From positions 1,178,001 through 1,242,000 of the forward strand of contig NZ_WRXM01000001.1 of assembly GCF_010119205.1 (NCBI RefSeq): 64,000 nucleotides of DNA. The letters are read 5' to 3'. Of the stretch, positions 52,521 through 62,598 are shown one piece after another. Under the pieces are notes generated by a model. It did no database searches, was not told the DNA's origin, and worked only from the letters and a program-made list of their open reading frames with translations. The position numbers and the translations under genes were made by a program. The first letter of the stretch is position 1, and each line of letters begins with the position of its first letter. This DNA is from Haloarcula limicola (GTDB lineage Archaea > Halobacteriota > Halobacteria > Halobacteriales > Haloarculaceae).

Positions 52521-53093
52521 TCAGACCAGCAGTTGGATGTCGCTGTCGGCCATGTCCTGGATGGCCGTCGCCGCGCCGACGCCGGTCGTGACGCCGTCGT
52601 AGAAGTCGTCCTCGTCGTAGTCCATCAGGTCGATGGTCATCTGACAGGCCTGGAACTCGACGCCCATGTCCAGCGAGGTCTCGATGAGTTCCTCGATGGT
52701 CGCCGTGTCGTTGTCGTCGATCTTCTTCGCCATCATCCTCGTCGTCATCCGGTCCATCCCGGGGAGCGCGCCGAGGACGTTCGGGACGGGCATGTTCGGA
52801 TTGCCGACCGAGCTCAGTTTGAGGTCCTTCGAGCGCTCCTCGTGGAGGATGTCCAGCCCCCAGAACGTGTGGAAGACCGTCACCTCGTAGCCGAAGGCGG
52901 CGGCGGTGCTGGCGAGGATGAGCGGCGGGTACGCCATGTCCAGCGTCCCCTTCGTGGCGATGATAGACATCTTCCGCTCGCCGTCGTCCTCGGTCGCCTC
53001 GGCGAGCGACTCCTCCAGCTCCTCGATGCGCGCGGCGAGTTCGGCTCGGGTCGGGACGTCGTCGTCGGCGGCCGTGGGCGTGTCTGTGCTCAT
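52521..53093 (-). CDS. DsrE/DsrF/DrsH-like sulfur-relay protein
   Basis: This 190-aa protein has an acidic coiled N-terminus (about 1-40) and a DsrE-fold domain: MSIIATKGTLDMAYPPLILASTAAAFGYEVTVFHTFWGL. The single Cys150 in VEFQACQM is where DsrE-type proteins carry a persulfide. The domain is found in sulfur-relay clusters with TusA and rhodanese. The following TusA gene on the same strand is 7 bp away, so they form a persulfide hand-over pair. Expression is divergent from the rhodanese-MBL gene. Confidence 0.88.
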   Translation of the reverse strand: MSTDTPTAADDDVPTRAELAARIEELEESLAEATEDDGERKMSIIATKGTLDMAYPPLILASTAAAFGYEVTVFHTFWGLDILHEERSKDLKLSSVGNPNMPVPNVLGALPGMDRMTTRMMAKKIDDNDTATIEELIETSLDMGVEFQACQMTIDLMDYDEDDFYDGVTTGVGAATAIQDMADSDIQLLV

Positions 53094-53100
53094 GGCTGGA

Positions 53101-53343
53101 TCACTCCGTCTTGCGGACGTAGTGCTTGAAGACCTCCTCGCCCTCCTCCTGGCCGAGGAGTTCGACGCCGTCGGTCGTGTCGGCCCACCCGCCGAGGTCG
53201 CTCATGCTCCCCGGGTCCGTCGCGAGCACTTCGAGGACCTCGCCCTCGGCGAGTCGGTCGACGTTCTGCTTGGTCTTGACGACCGGCATCGGGCAGTTCT
53301 CCCCCTTCACGTCGAGCGTCTGGGTGACTTCGTGTTCAGTCAT
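53101..53343 (-). CDS. tusA: TusA-family sulfur carrier protein
   Basis: This 80-aa sulfur carrier has the defining CPMP motif (Cys17-Pro-Met-Pro) after the TLDVKGENC segment. TusA-type proteins carry persulfide between rhodaneses, DsrE-like proteins and final acceptors. It is the first gene of a two-gene minus-strand unit with the DsrE-like gene. The promoter has an inverted repeat, GGTATTG/CAATACC (53344-53368), and a TATA box near 53378. Confidence 0.93.
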   Translation of the reverse strand: MTEHEVTQTLDVKGENCPMPVVKTKQNVDRLAEGEVLEVLATDPGSMSDLGGWADTTDGVELLGQEEGEEVFKHYVRKTE

Positions 53344-53368
53344 GGTATTGTCTTCACCACCCAATACC
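53344..53368. promoter_or_regulatory. tusA operator candidate
   Basis: GGTATTG (53344-53350) and CAATACC (53362-53368) form perfect 7-bp arms separated by 11 bp. They lie between the tusA ATG and the minus-strand TATA box (about 53375-53386). The arms share the core TATTG with the motif of the other sulfur promoters. Confidence 0.5.
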
Positions 53369-53480
53369 GGGTGCAGTATAAAAAATGTGTCGGTAGTAAT
53401 CCCGCTATTATGCACGACTATATCACCAAAGACCCGATATATCCGAATATAGGGCCTGAAATATCGATTTCTCTGCCTCT

Positions 53481-53490
53481 AGTATTGTGC
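53481..53490 (+). promoter_or_regulatory. Sulfur-regulon motif site 1 (rhodanese-MBL 1)
   Basis: AGTATTGTGC lies upstream of the CCTTATTTCG TATA-like box (about 53512-53521) of the 53550 gene. CTATGCAAA follows 23 bp downstream, as it does at site 3 with 10 bp less spacing. Confidence 0.5.
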
Positions 53491-53549
53491 GAAAGTTGAA
53501 CTACTATGCAAAGCCTTATTTCGGAGTAGCCGATAGATAGGGGTGAACG

Positions 53550-54731
53550 ATGACGCAAGGGACCAACCCCGACACCGGCGAACCGGTCGCATCGACGACG
53601 CCGACCGAACTGAAAGCCCGCATCGACGACGGCGAGGACGTGTTCATCCTCGACGCGCGCTCGGAGGACGACTTCGAGGAGTGGCGCATCGGCGGCGAGT
53701 CCGTCGAGATCGTGAACTATCCGTACTTCCAGTTGCTCGACGGCATCCCCGAGGACCTCCACGAGGCGCTCCCGGACGACCGGCGCATCACCGTCCTCTG
53801 TGCGAAGGGCGGTTCCAGCGAGCTGGTCGCCGAGCACCTCGAAGCCGAGGGGTACGAGGTCGACCACCTCGAACGCGGGATGAAGGGCTGGGCGCGCATC
53901 TACGAGTACCAGGAACTGGACGCGGCCGGCGACGTGACCGTCGCGCAGTATCAGCGTCCGTCGAGCGGCTGTCTCGCCTACCTCGTCGTCTCCGACGGGG
54001 AGGCGGCGGTCGTCGACCCGCTTCGCGCCTTCGCCGACGAGTACGTCCGGGACGCGAAGGCGCTCGGGGCCGACCTGACGTACGCGCTCGATACGCACGT
54101 CCACGCGGACCACATCTCGGGCATCCGCGACCTCTCCGCCGGAACCGACACGACGGCGGTGCTGCCCGAGGCGGCCGCCGACCGCGGCGTCGACTACGAC
54201 GCGGACTTCGCGACAGTCGAGGACGGGGAGACGCTCTCGCTCGGCGACACCGAGATCGAGGTCGTTCACACCCCCGGCCACACGACGGGCATGACCGCCT
54301 ACAGGGTCGGTGACGTCCTGTTCACCGGCGACGGCCTCTTCACCGAGAGCGTCGCCCGGCCGGACCTCGAAGACCCCGAAGCCGCGAGAGACGCCGCCCG
54401 GACGCTCTACGAGAGCCTGACCGAGCGCGTCCTCTCGCTGCCCGACGAGACGGTCGTCGCACCGGCGCACTTCAGCGACGCGGCGACGCCCGCCGACGAC
54501 GGCACGTACACAGCCGAACTCGGCGATCTCGAAGCGCGGATGGACGCGCTCTCGATGGACGAAGCCGAGTTCGTCGAGTTCATCGTGGCCGACATGCCGC
54601 CCCAGCCCGCGAACTACGAGGAGATCATCGCGGCCAACCTCGGGCGGCAGTCCCCCGACGACGAGACGGCGTTCGAACTCGAACTCGGCCCGAACAACTG
54701 CGCCGCCAGCGAGGACGCGCTGACTAACTGA
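53550..54731 (+). CDS. Rhodanese--metallo-beta-lactamase fusion (persulfide dioxygenase-like), paralogue 1
   Basis: This 393-aa protein has an N-terminal rhodanese domain (about 15-125) with active Cys84 in LCAKGGSS, and a C-terminal MBL domain with HVHADH at 183-188 and the later HTPGH. Persulfide dioxygenases of this kind oxidise glutathione- or other persulfides to sulfite with a mononuclear iron. The C-terminus ends in an LELGPNNCAA segment shared with paralogue 2. It heads a plus-strand unit with two YeeE genes, 2 bp apart. Confidence 0.88.
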   Translation: MTQGTNPDTGEPVASTTPTELKARIDDGEDVFILDARSEDDFEEWRIGGESVEIVNYPYFQLLDGIPEDLHEALPDDRRITVLCAKGGSSELVAEHLEAEGYEVDHLERGMKGWARIYEYQELDAAGDVTVAQYQRPSSGCLAYLVVSDGEAAVVDPLRAFADEYVRDAKALGADLTYALDTHVHADHISGIRDLSAGTDTTAVLPEAAADRGVDYDADFATVEDGETLSLGDTEIEVVHTPGHTTGMTAYRVGDVLFTGDGLFTESVARPDLEDPEAARDAARTLYESLTERVLSLPDETVVAPAHFSDAATPADDGTYTAELGDLEARMDALSMDEAEFVEFIVADMPPQPANYEEIIAANLGRQSPDDETAFELELGPNNCAASEDALTN

Positions 54732-54733
54732 CG

Positions 54734-55234
54734 ATGGAACCGTTCACACCGCTGCTCGCGCTCGGTGACCCCTTCCCTCGCGGAGTGGTGCCGTATCTGA
54801 TCGGCGGCCTCCTCGTCGGGCTCGGAGCGTCGGTCGTCTACCTCTCGACGGGCATCATCGCGGGCGCGAGCACGTTCCTCGAGTCGACGCTCTCGTACGT
54901 CTCGAACGTCGACCGGTTCAACCGCTTCAAGTACCGCCAGTCGCGGGGGTGGCGACTCGTGTTCACCGCGGGCATCGTCAGCGGCGCGGCGCTCTGGGCG
55001 TTCGTCCTCGCGCCCGACCCCGGCATCTGGACGACGAGAGTCGAGTGGTGGCGGCTGCTCGGCGGCGGCTTCCTCGTCGGCGTCGGCACCCGCCTCGGGA
55101 AGGGTTGCACTTCGGGACACGGCGTCTGCGGCGTCGGGTCCCTCTCGAACACGTCGCTCGTGAACGTCGCCACGTTCATGACCTTCGCCATCGGCACCGC
55201 GCAGATAGTGCAGGCGCTGGGGGTGAGCCCGTGA
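54734..55234 (+). CDS. YeeE/YedE family half-transporter, part 1
   Basis: This 166-aa membrane protein has four to five helices and the sulfur-transport motif GKGCTSGHGVCGVG near residue 122 with Cys residues. YeeE/YedE proteins import thiosulfate or other sulfur compounds, and haloarchaea often split them into two genes. It begins 2 bp after the rhodanese-MBL and overlaps the second half by 4 nt (GTGA), indicating tight co-expression. Thiosulfate is a likely but unproven substrate. Confidence 0.87.
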   Translation: MEPFTPLLALGDPFPRGVVPYLIGGLLVGLGASVVYLSTGIIAGASTFLESTLSYVSNVDRFNRFKYRQSRGWRLVFTAGIVSGAALWAFVLAPDPGIWTTRVEWWRLLGGGFLVGVGTRLGKGCTSGHGVCGVGSLSNTSLVNVATFMTFAIGTAQIVQALGVSP

Positions 55235-55698
55235 GCGACGCCGGACGGAGCCCGCTGTTCCTCCCCATGATCTACGTCGGGGGGCTGATATTCGGTCTCG
55301 GTCTCGCCGTCAGCGGGATGGCCAAGCCCGAGATCGTGCTGGACTTCCTCCAGTTCGAGGACTTCGGCCTCCTGTTCGTGATGGGCGGGGCGGCCGTCGT
55401 CAGCGGCGTCGCGTTCGCCGTCGCGACGCGGTATCTCGACCGAGCGCCGCTGACCGCCCGCGAGTACGCGCGACGCGTGAAGGAGTTCGACCGGAACGTC
55501 GTCCTCGGCGGCGCCGTCTTCGGCGTCGGCTGGGGGCTCTCGGGCATCTGTCCGGGCGCCGCCTACGCCAGTTTCGGGGTCGGTAACTATCCGATCCTCT
55601 GGGCGATCGCCGGCATGTTCCTCGGCGCGTACGCGCAGGGATACGTGCGCCCGACCAGTACAGACGACACGACCACGGCAGACGCGACCACACGCTAA
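55231..55698 (+). CDS. YeeE/YedE family half-transporter, part 2
   Basis: This 155-aa membrane protein has four helices. It includes GLIFGLGLAVSGMAKPEIVLDF and the matching pore motif GWGLSGICPGAAYAS with Cys near residue 105. The two halves together have about eight helices, as in a full-length YeeE. It starts at GTG, overlapping the first half's stop. The split is a known arrangement and not a frameshift: both parts have their own start codons and clean ends. Confidence 0.86.
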   Translation: MSDAGRSPLFLPMIYVGGLIFGLGLAVSGMAKPEIVLDFLQFEDFGLLFVMGGAAVVSGVAFAVATRYLDRAPLTAREYARRVKEFDRNVVLGGAVFGVGWGLSGICPGAAYASFGVGNYPILWAIAGMFLGAYAQGYVRPTSTDDTTTADATTR

Positions 55699-55743
55699 CA
55701 GTACCACAGATGTCTCGACTCGATACCCTAACCGTTTGGAAGC

Positions 55744-55753
55744 AGTATTGTGT
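55744..55753 (+). promoter_or_regulatory. Sulfur-regulon motif site 2 (DUF7512-TauE)
   Basis: AGTATTGTGT lies upstream of an AT-rich box (ATCATACAAACC, about 55767-55778) and 42 bp before the 49-aa gene start. GTGT and ACAC around it give a short dyad. Confidence 0.5.
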
Positions 55754-55794
55754 AGTAATGACACTATCATACAAACCAATAGAGGGAGCGTGAG

Positions 55795-55944
55795 ATGTTC
55801 GGGCTCGAATCGCTGAGTGGGTCCGCACAGGCCGTCGCCACCGTGGGAGTCGTCTTCGCGGAGGCCATCGCGCTGTACGTCGGGTACGGCGCGCTCAGCA
55901 GCGTGCTCGGCTCGACCGTCCTCGACGCGCTCGGGGGTGACTGA
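55795..55944 (+). CDS. Small hydrophobic protein (49 aa), DUF7512-like
   Basis: This 49-residue ORF reads as a short amphipathic start (MFGLESLSGSAQAV), one membrane helix (VGVVFAEAIALYVGYGALSSVLG) and an acidic end. Haloarchaeal codon use is clean, and the TauE gene starts 2 bp later, so it is a real part of the unit. It resembles a haloarchaeal family found before TauE/SafE exporters. It may be a subunit or stabiliser of the exporter; this is inferred from adjacency. Confidence 0.7.
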   Translation: MFGLESLSGSAQAVATVGVVFAEAIALYVGYGALSSVLGSTVLDALGGD

Positions 55945-55946
55945 CG

Positions 55947-56945
55947 ATGGCGATACTCGGGCTGAGTCTCGGCATGATCGCCCTCTTCGTGGGCTTCGGT
56001 CTGCTCATCGGGACCCTGTTCGGGTTCTTCGGGATGGGCGGGTCGTTCCTCGTGACGCCGGCGCTGCTCGTGATGGGCTATCCCTCGACAGTCGCCGTCG
56101 GGAGCGGGCTCGCGTTCGTCTTCGGGACGAGCGTCATCGGCGCGCTCCGGCACCGCGACCACGGGCAGGTCGACTACACGCTCGCCGTGATAATGACCGT
56201 CGCCATGACGCTCGGCATCGAGGGCGGGAAGCGCGTCGTGTTCTTCCTCGACGCCACCGGGGCGGCCGACCTCGTCATCAACGTCGCCTACGTCGGCCTC
56301 CTCGCGACGGTCGGACTGTTCACCCTGCGCGACGCGTGGTCGGACGACGAGGAGAGCGAGACGGGCGGTGACCTCGCCGACCGCGTCCAATCCCTTCACA
56401 TTCCCCCGATGGTGACGTTACGCGGCGGCGTCCGCGTCTCCGGGACCGTCGTCTTCGCCGTCGGACTCGTCATCGGCGTCCTCTCGGGGTTCCTCGGCGT
56501 CGGCGGCGGTTTCCTGCTGATGCCGGCGATGATGTACGGGCTCGGCGTGCCCGCTGCCATCGCTGTGGGGACGGACATCCTCCAGATAACGATCTCCGGC
56601 GCGTTCGGCGCGTTCACCTACGCGCAGTCCGGGTCGGTCGCACTACCCGTCGTTGGCGCGCTGCTCGTGGGAAGCGCCCTCGGCGCGCGAGTGGGGGCCG
56701 GGGCGACCAACCTCGTCGACGAGGGCGAGATAAAGGGCTACTTCGCCGCGATGCTGCTCGCCGGCAGCGCCGCCGTCGCCTCGAACAGGCTCGGGACCGT
56801 CTACGGGATCGAAGTCCTGAACACGCTGAGCACCGTGCTCATCTTCGGATCGGCCCTGCTGGTGAGCGGTGCGGTGGTGCTCGCCGCGGTCTGTCGGCTC
56901 CGGGGAGACTCGGACGGCACGTGGTGTCGCCTCACCACGTCGTAG
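55947..56945 (+). CDS. TauE/SafE-family sulfite or sulfonate exporter
   Basis: This 332-aa membrane protein has about eight helices in two homologous halves. The duplicated GGSFLVTPALLVMGYPSTVAVGSG and GGGFLLMPAMMYGLGVPAAIAVGTD segments are the family hallmark. Members export sulfite, sulfoacetate or similar anions. Next to persulfide dioxygenase-like genes, the cargo may be sulfite, the product of persulfide oxidation. That would remove the toxic end product. It starts 2 bp after the 49-aa gene. Confidence 0.88.
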   Translation: MAILGLSLGMIALFVGFGLLIGTLFGFFGMGGSFLVTPALLVMGYPSTVAVGSGLAFVFGTSVIGALRHRDHGQVDYTLAVIMTVAMTLGIEGGKRVVFFLDATGAADLVINVAYVGLLATVGLFTLRDAWSDDEESETGGDLADRVQSLHIPPMVTLRGGVRVSGTVVFAVGLVIGVLSGFLGVGGGFLLMPAMMYGLGVPAAIAVGTDILQITISGAFGAFTYAQSGSVALPVVGALLVGSALGARVGAGATNLVDEGEIKGYFAAMLLAGSAAVASNRLGTVYGIEVLNTLSTVLIFGSALLVSGAVVLAAVCRLRGDSDGTWCRLTTS

Positions 56946-56967
56946 GACCCGCGGCGTCAGAGATAGG

Positions 56968-56981
56968 CACAGTATTGTGCC
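56968..56981. promoter_or_regulatory. Sulfur-regulon motif site 3 (regulator)
   Basis: GCACA-GTAT-TGTGC is a palindrome that contains the core AGTATTGTGC. It is followed 3 bp later by CTATGCAAATACTTTT, which includes the TATA region (about 56990-56999). It stands before the winged-helix regulator gene, so self-regulation is likely. Confidence 0.55.
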
Positions 56982-57028
56982 ATCTATGCAAATACTTTTG
57001 CTCGTCCGGTTCGTACGTTCCGCTAACA

Positions 57029-57430
57029 ATGGCTAACTCGATGAACGAGATGCTCCGCAAGGACATGCAATGCGAGGGGTTACTGGAGTGTTTCCACGAC
57101 CTCAAGGAGATCGACAAGGAGATCTTCCAGTTACTGCACGACCGCGCGGAGCCGCTCACCGTCGACGAGATCGCGGAACGCGTCGACCGTGAGCGCTCGA
57201 CCGCTTACCGCGGCGTCCAACGTCTGATGCAGGCGGGGTTCATCCAGAAAGAGCAGGTGAACTACGACCAGGGCGGCTACTACCACGTCTACCGGCCGCG
57301 CGACGGCGAGGAGATCGCCCAGGAGATGCAACGGACCCTCAACGACTGGTACGCGCAGATGGGACAGCTCATCGGGGAGTTCGGCGAGAAGTACGACAGC
57401 GAGTCACGTCCCGCCGCCGCCGAGAACTGA
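57029..57430 (+). CDS. Small winged-helix regulator with two N-terminal cysteines
   Basis: This 133-aa protein has a TrmB/MarR-like winged-helix DNA-binding domain (ERVDRERSTAYRGVQRLMQAGFIQKEQVNYDQGGYYHVYRP, about residues 50-90) and an acidic C-terminal helix likely to dimerise. An N-terminal extension holds Cys15 and Cys21 (MQCEGLLEC, CX5C). These could sense persulfide or redox state, a role inferred. The gene sits inside the sulfur island with a palindromic motif in its own promoter. It is the prime candidate for the regulator of the shared motif. Confidence 0.82.
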   Translation: MANSMNEMLRKDMQCEGLLECFHDLKEIDKEIFQLLHDRAEPLTVDEIAERVDRERSTAYRGVQRLMQAGFIQKEQVNYDQGGYYHVYRPRDGEEIAQEMQRTLNDWYAQMGQLIGEFGEKYDSESRPAAAEN

Positions 57431-57511
57431 GATCTGGCTTTCTCTTCGCGCAATGCGTGCGCCTATCGGTCGTCCAATAGCCGAGGGTTCGTCTCGGTAG
57501 TTCGCACGTCG

Positions 57512-57880
57512 TTACGGGACGAACCGCCGGAGGAGGGAAGCCACGCGATAGAGGATCGTCCGCTCGCGGTACTGTCGCCAGCCGGTAAATCCGCCTGTGA
57601 GCGTGGTCGCTTCGTAGCCCCGTTCGTCGAGGCGGGCCGTCGCTTTCCGTGCGACTATCCCCGCCTTGCAGACCGTCACGACAGCTTGGTCGTCCGGAAT
57701 CTCAGCGAGGTGCGAGTCGAGCGACTCGGTGTCTCCTCGCCGGAGGTCGTCGTAGACCGGGACGTTGTAACTGCCCTCGATGTGGTCCTCCCGGTAGTGA
57801 GCCGCGGGGCGAACGTCGAGGACGAACGCGTTGTCGCTCGAAAGCCGGTCGTCGAGTTCGGACGGTCCGATTCGGCTCAT
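57512..57880 (-). CDS. Single-domain rhodanese (sulfurtransferase)
   Basis: This 122-aa rhodanese-like protein carries the persulfide-forming Cys71 in VCKAGIVARKA, after SELDDRLSSDNAFVLDVRPAAHYREDHIEGSYNVP. The C-terminal YLYRVASLLRRFVP-like tail is unusual: it is amphipathic and basic, and may contact the membrane. It is transcribed against its neighbours and may act with TusA and DsrE in moving persulfide sulfur. Confidence 0.88.
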   Translation of the reverse strand: MSRIGPSELDDRLSSDNAFVLDVRPAAHYREDHIEGSYNVPVYDDLRRGDTESLDSHLAEIPDDQAVVTVCKAGIVARKATARLDERGYEATTLTGGFTGWRQYRERTILYRVASLLRRFVP

Positions 57881-58077
57881 TCGTCTGTAGTTGTGTGAGA
57901 ACGGTGAAATAGTTGGCGGTCAAGAAGCGACATCTCGATATTCTCTGAACACTCGAATTTTTCGTCGATAGTCATTAGTGCCCCCATATACGCATGATTT
58001 CCGGCGTCTGAAGTGATTTCCGGAGTCAGTACGTCGCGTTACTGCCAACGGATTTATGAGCGTGGAAACTCATAGTA
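57881..58077. promoter_or_regulatory. Divergent promoter region with direct repeat
   Basis: The 197-bp gap serves the rhodanese and the second rhodanese-MBL gene. TGATTTCCGG occurs at 57995-58004 and again at 58014-58023, offset by 19 bp, upstream of a TTTAT box near 58052. The AGTATTGT motif of the other sulfur genes is absent. Confidence 0.45.
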
Positions 58078-59205
58078 ATGGATACGATGAGCAATACTGG
58101 ATACGAGCCGAGCGAGCTCGCGCGTCGCGTTCGAGACGACGAAGACCTCTTCGTCCTCGACGTCCGGAACGAAGAGGACTACGAGGAGTGGCGGATACCG
58201 GGCAGCACGAACCTCCCGATATACGACGATCTCCTCGAATACGACTACTCCTCGCTGGAGGAGCGACTCGACGACATCCCGAAGGAGAAGGAGATCGCCG
58301 TCGTCTGCGTCGCGGGCGTCACATCCGCGCGCGCCGCGGAGTTCCTGCGCGAACGGGGCTACGACGCCGAGTCCATCGACGACGGGATGAACGGATGGGG
58401 GAAGGCACATCGCCAGTACGAGGTCGAGGGAGTCGACGGCGTCGTCCAGGTCGTCCGTCCCGGTACGGGCTGTGTCTCCTACCTCGCTCACGACGACGGC
58501 GAGGCCGTCGTCGTCGACCCGACGCAGTACATCGAGGAGTACCTCGAGGCCGCGGACGAGCGCGACCTCGAGATCGTCGGCGTCGTCGACACGCACGCCC
58601 ACGCCGACCACGTCTCCGGCGCGCGCCGGCTGGCGGGCGAGCTCGACGTCCCCTACTACCTCCACGGCGAGGACGCCGGCGAACTCGACGAAGTGAGCGA
58701 GCTCGAGGACGGCGACGCGATCGACGTCGGCGGCCGCGAGCTCGACGTTCACCACACGCCCGGCCACACGCCCGGGAGCGCGTCCTTCGACTTCGGCGAC
58801 GCGCTCCTCTCCGGCGACACGCTGTTCCTCCGCAGCGTCGGTCGCCCGGACCTCGAAGACGGTTCCGAGGACGCCGTCCGGGAGGCCGCGAGCCGACTGT
58901 TCGACAGCCTCGACGAGCTGACCGACTTCGGCGACGAGACCGTCGTCCTCCCTGGCCACTTCAACGACGAGGAAGTGCGCCCGCTCGCGACCGAACTCGG
59001 CGACCTCGTGGCGGAGTCGAACAACGAGCTCCTGGGCTACGTCGAAGACGGCGACGAGGAGGCGTTCGTCGAGACCATCGTCGAGAGCCTCGCCGACGAG
59101 CCCGCGAACTACAACGAGATCAAGCAGATCAACTGGGGCAAGGAGCAGCCGGGCGGCGACGTGGAGTCCCTCGAACTCGGCCCGAACAACTGCGCCGCTA
59201 ACTGA
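58078..59205 (+). CDS. Rhodanese--metallo-beta-lactamase fusion, paralogue 2
   Basis: This 375-aa protein has the same layout as the 53550 gene: rhodanese (about 8-115) with Cys77 in VCVAGVTSARAAEF, then MBL with HAHADH at 173-178 and HTPGHTPG. It also ends LELGPNNCAA. The two are about as long and share segments such as NNCAA and AHADH/VHADH, but differ widely otherwise, so they are old paralogues. The TATA-like ATTTAT about 26 bp upstream suggests leaderless expression. Likely function: persulfide oxidation. Confidence 0.87.
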   Translation: MDTMSNTGYEPSELARRVRDDEDLFVLDVRNEEDYEEWRIPGSTNLPIYDDLLEYDYSSLEERLDDIPKEKEIAVVCVAGVTSARAAEFLRERGYDAESIDDGMNGWGKAHRQYEVEGVDGVVQVVRPGTGCVSYLAHDDGEAVVVDPTQYIEEYLEAADERDLEIVGVVDTHAHADHVSGARRLAGELDVPYYLHGEDAGELDEVSELEDGDAIDVGGRELDVHHTPGHTPGSASFDFGDALLSGDTLFLRSVGRPDLEDGSEDAVREAASRLFDSLDELTDFGDETVVLPGHFNDEEVRPLATELGDLVAESNNELLGYVEDGDEEAFVETIVESLADEPANYNEIKQINWGKEQPGGDVESLELGPNNCAAN

Positions 59206-59284
59206 GTCCCCTCTCTCTGAATCTCTCGCCGGCTTCAACCTCGCTCAGAGACACACAATCACACGCTAACTCCCGTGAGGCATT

Positions 59285-59294
59285 AGTATTGTAG
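59285..59294 (+). promoter_or_regulatory. Sulfur-regulon motif site 4 (thioredoxin)
   Basis: AGTATTGTAG lies 12 bp upstream of the CTCTTAATTACC TATA region (about 59307-59318), before the thioredoxin start at 59341. It matches the first eight bases of sites 1-3. Confidence 0.45.
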
Positions 59295-59340
59295 AATATA
59301 CCCAAAACTCTTAATTACCGCTGGCACGTACTAGCGAGTG

Positions 59341-59697
59341 ATGACTGTAGAACCCTCGACCGATTCGAATGGCCGATCGCCCGCGGAACCGGTCGCTATC
59401 GACGGACAGGCGGCCCTCGACGAGTTCGTGGCCGAGAACGACGTGGTCCTCGCCGACTTCTACGCCGACTGGTGCGGACCCTGCAAGATGCTGGAACCGA
59501 CTGTCGAACGGCTCGCGGCCGATACCGACGCCGCCGTCGCGAAAGTCGACGTCGACGCCAACCAACCGCTCGCGCAGGCCTACGGCGTCCGCGGCGTGCC
59601 GACGCTCATCCTCTTCGCCGGCGGTGAGAAGGTGGAGGAAGTCGTCGGCGTTCAATCGGGAGACCGGCTCCGGTCGTTGATAGAGCGCTACGCCTGA
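59341..59697 (+). CDS. trxA: Thioredoxin
   Basis: This 118-aa thioredoxin has the active site WCGPC (Cys45 and Cys48) after VVLADFYAD. The conserved cis-Pro lies in GVPTLILF. An N-terminal extension of about 20 residues, rich in Ser and Pro, is present. It reduces disulfides and could also remove persulfide from rhodanese or Rhd-MBL enzymes. Its promoter carries the motif shared with the sulfur island. ATG at 59341 is taken; GTG three bases earlier is equally in frame. Confidence 0.93.
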   Translation: MTVEPSTDSNGRSPAEPVAIDGQAALDEFVAENDVVLADFYADWCGPCKMLEPTVERLAADTDAAVAKVDVDANQPLAQAYGVRGVPTLILFAGGEKVEEVVGVQSGDRLRSLIERYA

Positions 59698-59819
59698 GAC
59701 GCTCCCGTCGGGTTTCCGCCGGCGTCACTACTCACGTAGTGACCGAATCTGATTGACGCAATCTGTGTAGCCAGAACTCGTTTTTACCGGGGCAGATATT
59801 GACCGCTACGGAGCCAAGG

Positions 59820-60110
59820 ATGACCGGAACGAAGCACGTACACTCGACAGCACCGGCAGAACCGCTGAGCGAAGCCGTCGTCTACGCCGTCGCGGCGGCG
59901 AAGGGGGTCGATCCGCTCGATCTCGACGAACGCCTCTACGACCACGTCAATCCCGAAGCGTTGGACGAACTGTTTCGAGAGCCCGACTCCGAGCGCCACG
60001 CCGCGCTCACGTTCTCGATGGCCGGGTGTCGCATCGAGATAGAGAACGGCGAGGTCGTGGTCGTCGTGACCGAGCCCGAGGAACCGTCAGCACCCGAGGT
60101 ACCCGCGTAG
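59820..60110 (+). CDS. HalOD1-domain protein (96 aa)
   Basis: This 96-aa protein carries a HalOD1 domain: EPLSEAVVYAVAAAKGVDPLDLDERLYDHVNPEALDELFRE, then a beta-strand rich end. The N-terminal 18 residues are polar. It lies between thioredoxin and a LeuA-type gene on the opposite strand. A TTTTTACC box sits about 35 bp upstream. Function unknown, probably regulatory. Confidence 0.82.
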   Translation: MTGTKHVHSTAPAEPLSEAVVYAVAAAKGVDPLDLDERLYDHVNPEALDELFREPDSERHAALTFSMAGCRIEIENGEVVVVVTEPEEPSAPEVPA

Positions 60111-62146: not shown

Positions 62147-62260
62147 ATGACGCAGCGTTACGCGACTCGTTTCACTCGTGAACCCTCCGCGGAGACCCCT
62201 ATTTTCGAAGCGACTGACGACAGCCCCGCAGACGCCTCGTGGAGACTCGCGCGACGATGA
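62147..62260 (+). CDS. Possible short upstream ORF coupled to HalOD1 gene (37 aa)
   Basis: A 37-codon ORF begins MTQRYATRFTREPSAE and ends with TGA overlapping the next ATG (ATGA). A TATTATT box lies near 28 bp upstream. The encoded peptide is polar and unstructured. It may be a leader peptide or a small regulator that couples translation; evidence is only the overlap and the promoter distance. Confidence 0.35.
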   Translation: MTQRYATRFTREPSAETPIFEATDDSPADASWRLARR

Positions 62261-62598
62261 CCATGACTGTCAACGAGAATCCGCAGAGCTCGACCTCGCG
62301 GCCGTCTGACGACGACGTATCGCCGAATCTCGTCTTCGAGACGACGTACGAGTACGGGACCGAAACCGACGAGCTGACCGTTCTCATCGTCGACGCCATC
62401 GCCGACGAGATGGACGTCTCTCCGGTGAAATTCGTCTCGAAGATCAACGAGGCCGTCAACCCCGACGCGATGGAGCGGATACTCCGCCCGCTACCGGACG
62501 GGACGAAGCGAAACGGCCAACTCATCTTCTTCCTCCACGGGTTCCGAATCAGCATTCACGGCGACGGCACGGTCCGGATTCACGAGACCCCGGCCTGA
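62257..62598 (+). CDS. HalOD1-domain protein (113 aa)
   Basis: This 113-aa protein has a HalOD1 domain (about 45-113): ELTVLIVDAIADEMDVSPVKFVSKINEAVNPDAMERIL, then GQLIFFLHGFRISIHGDGTVRIHE. The N-terminal 40 residues are polar. A second ATG at 62263 is also possible. It ends 1 bp before the DUF192 gene on the other strand. The role is unknown; the fold is common in haloarchaeal regulators. Confidence 0.82.
   Translation: MTMTVNENPQSSTSRPSDDDVSPNLVFETTYEYGTETDELTVLIVDAIADEMDVSPVKFVSKINEAVNPDAMERILRPLPDGTKRNGQLIFFLHGFRISIHGDGTVRIHETPA

Follow-up and report, generated by a model that had tools for sequence, protein, structure and literature searches.

The bigR operon of Xylella and Agrobacterium and the BigR-regulated yeeE-yedE-pdo2 operon of Acinetobacter and Serratia (pmp) combine a sulfurtransferase-ETHE1 fusion or a persulfide dioxygenase (PDO), a split YeeE/YedE pair, a TauE exporter and a two-cysteine winged-helix regulator (PMC5823870, PMC7315123). 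In the CstR/cst system of S. aureus and in the FisR operons, a persulfide dioxygenase and TauE are placed under a sulfane-sulfur sensor (PMC7315123). Here we analyse a reactive-sulfur island of 11 adjacent genes of the haloarchaeon Haloarcula limicola, located at positions 52521-59697 of a 64,000-nucleotide stretch of contig NZ_WRXM01000001.1 (the window); the contig measures 1.82 Mb and the genome 3.9 Mb. Ten of the 11 genes are linked by one repeated operator. The best reading of the island is as the archaeal equivalent of the persulfide-detoxification operons of bacteria (bigR/pmp/cst), placed under an unrelated two-cysteine winged-helix regulator, here called REG. It is not a bigR operon, because both the regulator family and the operator differ.

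The genes are distributed over seven transcription units: tusA-dsrE2, a rhodanese-metallo-β-lactamase (MBL) fusion followed by two yeeE genes (RM1-yeeE-yeeE), DUF7512-tauE, REG, a second fusion (RM2), a thioredoxin gene (trx) and a lone rhodanese. The original prediction had listed these sulfur genes within 7.2 kb; all of them were recovered at the positions it gave, the families being identified by profile searches and the thioredoxin by its WCGPC motif. Several features separate the set from bigR and pmp: BigR is an ArsR-family repressor, whereas REG is Lrs14/TrmB-like and is linked to another operator; TusA-DsrE2, DUF7512, thioredoxin and a second fusion are added, in several transcription units; and the N-terminal domain of the fusion is a rhodanese, not DUF442. 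Unlike the cst and FisR operons, the island contains no sulfide:quinone reductase and its regulator is unrelated, and the domain order of its fusions is reversed with respect to CstB-type proteins. A literature search, with subscription journals mostly outside its scope, returned no paper on the island, the operator or DUF7512, and nothing on the island in the work on haloarchaeal denitrification and oxidative stress.

The new operator is a 23-bp dyad, GTATTG-N11-CAAWAC, that marks six of the seven units: tusA-dsrE2, RM1-yeeE-yeeE, DUF7512-tauE, REG, RM2 and trx. The sequence AGTATTGT was first seen ahead of several of them on reading the intergenic DNA. GTATTGT is present five times in the window, always within island promoters, with 0.82 occurrences expected and none of 100 shuffles reaching five. 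The pattern AGTATTGT-N9..22-CAAA has four occurrences genome-wide, every one of them in the island, with spacings of 20, 20, 10 and 10, and the control gave 0; AGTATTGTR with one mismatch allowed is weakly enriched. The possibility that RM2 lies outside the regulon was rejected, as its dyad covers the start codon, where the first promoter stretch scanned had ended. Dyad-like sites with one mismatch occur elsewhere in the same genome, at C1:613571, C2:29974, C2:1076594, C4:154042, C5:104028, C5:175615 and C6:61690.

The operator and its spacing are conserved across haloarchaea. A survey of 117 genomes gave at least 150 matches; among the 150 listed, the distance to CAAA was 10 bp in 82 and 20 bp in 17, each other spacing accounting for 1-10. 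Of these listed sites, 59 of the 99 phased ones had an RM1-like gene within 15 kb, compared with five of the 51 unphased, and the phased sites distant from RM1 in other genomes mainly precede trx, REG or DUF7512, thioredoxin most often. The dyad, with up to two mismatches, was present in 70 of 72 distinct tusA promoters versus 0.25 in shuffles; there the N11 spacing was counted 68 times and any other spacing at most six. It covers the RM2 start codon in 20 of 20 distinct orthologues, and loci L112 and L118 retain CAATAC despite a different second codon. Three placements can be distinguished: abutting or overlapping the transcription factor B recognition element and TATA box (BRE/TATA) in REG, trx and many DUF7512 promoters; one helical turn further from the CAAA/TATA element in the RM1 class; and over the start region in tusA and RM2. 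Genomes G063 and G090 hold nine and eight perfect dyads, respectively, which suggests enlarged regulons.

Presence of the dyad largely follows that of REG, scored at E<=1e-25. Of the 101 genomes with REG, 82 contained a perfect dyad, as did 4 of the 16 without it (p=1.6e-5); when genomes at least 90% complete were compared, the counts were 74 of 90 and 1 of 7 (p=4e-4). The dyad could be genuine and yet bound by another factor, such as the OxsR-like paralogue or a general factor, with REG as a passenger: the pairing of REG with the dyad is inferred, and G024, a near-complete genome, keeps two perfect dyads with no REG at the above threshold. We regard this as unlikely, since the REG promoter itself carries the dyad, many of the sites distant from RM1 fall at the REG gene, and the genome counts differ as stated. 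REG is taken as the candidate protein that binds the dyad, and the site in its own promoter predicts autoregulation.

REG, whose start was corrected, most likely to 57029 (MANSMNEM...), has about 130 residues including Cys15 and Cys21, folds as a winged helix and is the sole match at the threshold in its own genome. The C-x5-C pair is invariant in 18 orthologues. Pfam places the protein with the TrmB winged helices, and the nearest NCBIfam models are Sta1 (75.9 bits against a cut-off of 80) and Lrs14 (42 against 90); the structural model, with a mean predicted local distance difference test score (pLDDT) of 82, matches 3r0a and the Lrs14-like AbfR2. These assignments separate it from the ArsR-family BigR. 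Related proteins are OxsR and HVO_1360 of Haloferax volcanii, single winged-helix thiol regulators of the TrmB type (arCOG02242), of which OxsR is a proven thiol switch (PMC9426492). The Cys15/Cys21 numbers of HVO_1360 match those of REG, a likeness judged by numbering (PMC9426492). However, OxsR depends on one key cysteine (C24) and a CG-rich motif, whereas REG has two invariant cysteines and is linked to an AT-rich dyad. A likely OxsR orthologue of H. limicola, L206 (C2:952873-953184), is a 128-aa winged helix with a single cysteine near the N terminus.

The resemblance to OxsR and HVO_1360 (PMC9426492), the shared cysteine numbering and the frequency of thioredoxin as a target would also fit an oxidative (hypochlorite or disulfide) stress response of the OxsR kind, in which REG senses oxidants instead of persulfide and the sulfur genes act as repair partners. 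We consider this improbable: the conserved targets are sulfur-specific (TusA, DsrE2, YeeE, TauE and rhodanese-MBL), the published OxsR motif is unlike the dyad, and the genome possesses a separate one-cysteine OxsR-like paralogue. On balance, and by a modest preference, we favour REG as a new class of archaeal sulfane-sulfur sensor, a two-cysteine single winged helix. It would use one dyad at three core-promoter positions, of which two are separated by one helical turn, to control a persulfide regulon that spans the haloarchaea and takes in thioredoxin, and would do so independently of BigR, CstR, SqrR and FisR. Repression relieved by persulfide is preferred to OxsR-like activation, at somewhat better than even odds, because the sites cover or adjoin BRE/TATA and the start regions.

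RM1 and RM2 are 42% identical; the RM2 start is probably 58087 (MSNT...), against 58078 for the listed frame. In RM1 three cysteines, C84 of the rhodanese, C141 and the C-terminal C384, are invariant, and the MBL metal ligands (H-x-H-x-D-H, H, D, H), namely H183, H185, D187, H188, H244, D261 and H307, are invariant in 20 sequences. The fold comparison of the fusions used the RM1 model (pLDDT 87), whose closest structural neighbours are human ETHE1 (ranked first, with a template modelling score of 0.89 by target), Beggiatoa PDO, the MBL protein 3r2u of S. aureus and BpPRF; glyoxalase II ranks behind them. Sequence searches with RM1 also match ETHE1- and PDO-type chains. Neither fusion reaches the cut-off of the NCBIfam model Blh (bifunctional sulfur transferase/dioxygenase), the scores being 48.7 and 51.1 bits against 625. 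The MBL domains are predicted to be ETHE1-type persulfide dioxygenases. The genome contains eight RM1-like matches; one further rhodanese-MBL homologue, elsewhere on the contig at L070 (C1:1404573-1405712), is 54% identical to RM1 and stands without other island genes.

Among the sulfur carriers, TusA, whose start was corrected to the ATG at 53343, is the sole TusA match of the genome, and DsrE2 matches the NCBIfam model SulfCarrDsrE2 at 7e-48, under the cut-off of that model. The two adjacent short yeeE genes, with the cysteine expected of each half present in the window copies, match opposite halves of the YeeE profile, the C-half gene first; a sequence search of the PDB with the first gene product returned nothing. 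The arrangement resembles that of the split PmpA/PmpB transporters, also encoded by two adjacent short genes for the C- and N-terminal halves (PMC11582611), a putative membership judged by profile. TauE scores 143.5 bits with the Pfam model (cut-off 32.6), and sulfite export has been proposed for its relatives in the bigR (PMC5823870) and FisR (PMC7315123) systems. DUF7512 ends two bases ahead of the tauE start, and its proximity to TauE is conserved in RM1- and REG-centred loci. Bacterial relatives of YeeE and TusA serve thiosulfate uptake and sulfur oxidation (PMC11582611), so that the island might instead assimilate or dissimilate thiosulfate or sulfur for growth, as sulfur source or electron donor. 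Such a role appears decidedly improbable, as sulfur would be lost through two fusions of the dioxygenase type and a homologue of sulfite exporters, and no Sox or Hdr-like genes were noticed in the neighbourhoods viewed, for which no profile search was made.

Gene order was compared in 40 loci centred on RM1 homologues and, independently of RM1, in 80 REG-centred loci of named genomes, several of them cut by contig ends. An arrangement in which DsrE2-TusA diverges from RM1-YeeE-YeeE, with DUF7512-TauE, REG, RM2 or TRX often next in line, was found in most of the RM1-centred loci, in many genera, and the order recurs in about half of the REG-centred ones; the scattering in relatives that would have spoken against a single system was not found. 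The REG-centred loci contained YeeE in 42 cases, DsrE2 in 40, TusA, RM1 and TauE in 39 each, TRX in 35 and DUF7512 in 26. RM2, with 13, is an accessory member, and the lone rhodanese, with four, is seldom conserved. The idea that the genes form one functional system is thereby supported, by synteny and by the operator shared by six units, for all but the lone rhodanese, for which the promoter search found no operator. Other recurrent neighbours of REG (L105-L184, e.g. L173, L138, L108 and L160), judged by inspection of the sequences, are a PiT-like permease in 19 loci and DUF2270-like, DUF302-like, thioredoxin reductase, DUF1641-like and SQR-like flavoprotein genes.

The closest named relative found, Haloarcula amylovorans LR21, is collinear across the compared 16-kb locus with about 88-90% DNA identity, and Salarchaeum plasmid pJOR178 has the same island order plus a few additional genes. 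RM1 is up to 81% identical to homologues in other families versus about 64-66% in the other genomes of its genus sampled, which points to lateral transfer. An assembly by chance or lateral transfer of genes with no common function would agree with these nearest copies in other families and with the 86 plasmid records that hold an RM1 homologue; we rejected a purely chance cluster as scarcely credible, since gene order and operator alike are repeated across genera.

We therefore favour, as the likely explanation, a haloarchaeal regulon for the detoxification of sulfane sulfur (persulfide, polysulfide or thiosulfate) run by REG. In the model, the two YeeE halves would take up sulfane sulfur, which would then be carried as protein persulfide by TusA, DsrE2 and the rhodanese domains. 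In RM1 and RM2, the MBL domains would oxidise persulfide to sulfite by ETHE1-type dioxygenation, the substrate being probably the persulfide of gamma-glutamylcysteine, the haloarchaeal thiol. Sulfite would then be exported by TauE together with the small membrane protein DUF7512, and thioredoxin would reduce stray persulfides. A REG dimer would bind the dyad and its Cys-x5-Cys pair would sense persulfide. The original prediction spoke of an import-relay-oxidise-export loop; a detoxification pathway describes the island better.

Besides genome G024, several points count against this explanation: (i) the AGTATTGT-N9..22-CAAA pattern was built partly from the same four sites, so that the independent tests weigh more; (ii) the dyad search with two mismatches in the own genome gave 41/38 against a background of 35/33 and hence cannot list further targets; (iii) the shuffle controls take loci as unrelated, shared ancestry being uncorrected; (iv) the perfect dyad is missing in 16 of the 90 near-complete REG-positive genomes, and between roughly one-quarter and one-third of the REG-centred loci lack the other island genes; (v) the MBL domains might instead act as glyoxalase-like enzymes or other thioesterases; (vi) the direction of transport by YeeE and TauE is assumed from homology; and (vii) the enzymatic and transport steps, the binding of REG to the operator, the identity of the inducer and the choice between repression and activation are inferred.

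Table 1. Genes and operator sites of the island, in window coordinates
Feature	Position	Strand	Description
dsrE2	52521..53093	-	DsrE/DsrF/DrsH-like sulfur carrier, 190 aa; Pfam DrsE_2 1.3e-51
tusA	53101..53343	-	Same orientation as dsrE2; CPMP motif; Pfam TusA 2e-20
Operator, tusA-dsrE2	53345..53367	-	Perfect dyad GTATTGGGTGGTGAAGACAATAC, 0 mismatches, 24 nt before ATG
Operator, RM1-YeeE unit	53482..53504	+	One helical turn upstream of CAAA/TATA element; class-20 spacing
RM1	53550..54731	+	Rhodanese-MBL fusion, predicted persulfide dioxygenase; Pfam Rhodanese and Lactamase_B
YeeE C-terminal-half homologue (PmpA-like)	54734..55234	+	Pfam Sulf_transp profile positions 174-305
YeeE N-terminal-half homologue (PmpB-like, DUF6691)	55231..55698	+	DUF6691 2.5e-24; Sulf_transp positions 22-110
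Operator, DUF7512-tauE	55745..55767	+	Dyad search
DUF7512	55795..55944	+	49 aa, one hydrophobic stretch; Pfam DUF7512 2e-21
TauE/SafE family permease	55947..56945	+	Predicted sulfite exporter; Pfam TauE 1e-41
Operator, REG	56972..56994	+	Right half overlaps CAAA/TATA
REG	57029..57430	+	Single winged-helix regulator, Lrs14/TrmB type; C-x5-C
Lone rhodanese	57512..57880	-	Pfam Rhodanese
Operator, RM2	58075..58097	+	Covers RM2 start codon; GTAATGGATACGATGAGCAATAC, 1 mismatch
RM2	58078..59205	+	Second rhodanese-MBL fusion; Pfam Rhodanese and Lactamase_B
Operator, thioredoxin gene	59286..59308	+	GTATTG-N11-CAAAAC
Thioredoxin (trx)	59338..59697	+	WCGPC motif, by eye

Just past the thioredoxin end of the island, positions 59799-60110 and 62239-62598 of the window encode two small related-looking proteins, which we take to be HalOD1-like.

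The sensing and removal of reactive sulfur in haloarchaea have been little described. Where there was a poorly annotated neighbourhood, the analysis defines a regulon and supplies its candidate sensor, its operator and a rule for operator spacing, all of them directly testable; DUF7512, a family of unknown function, gains a firm context beside TauE.

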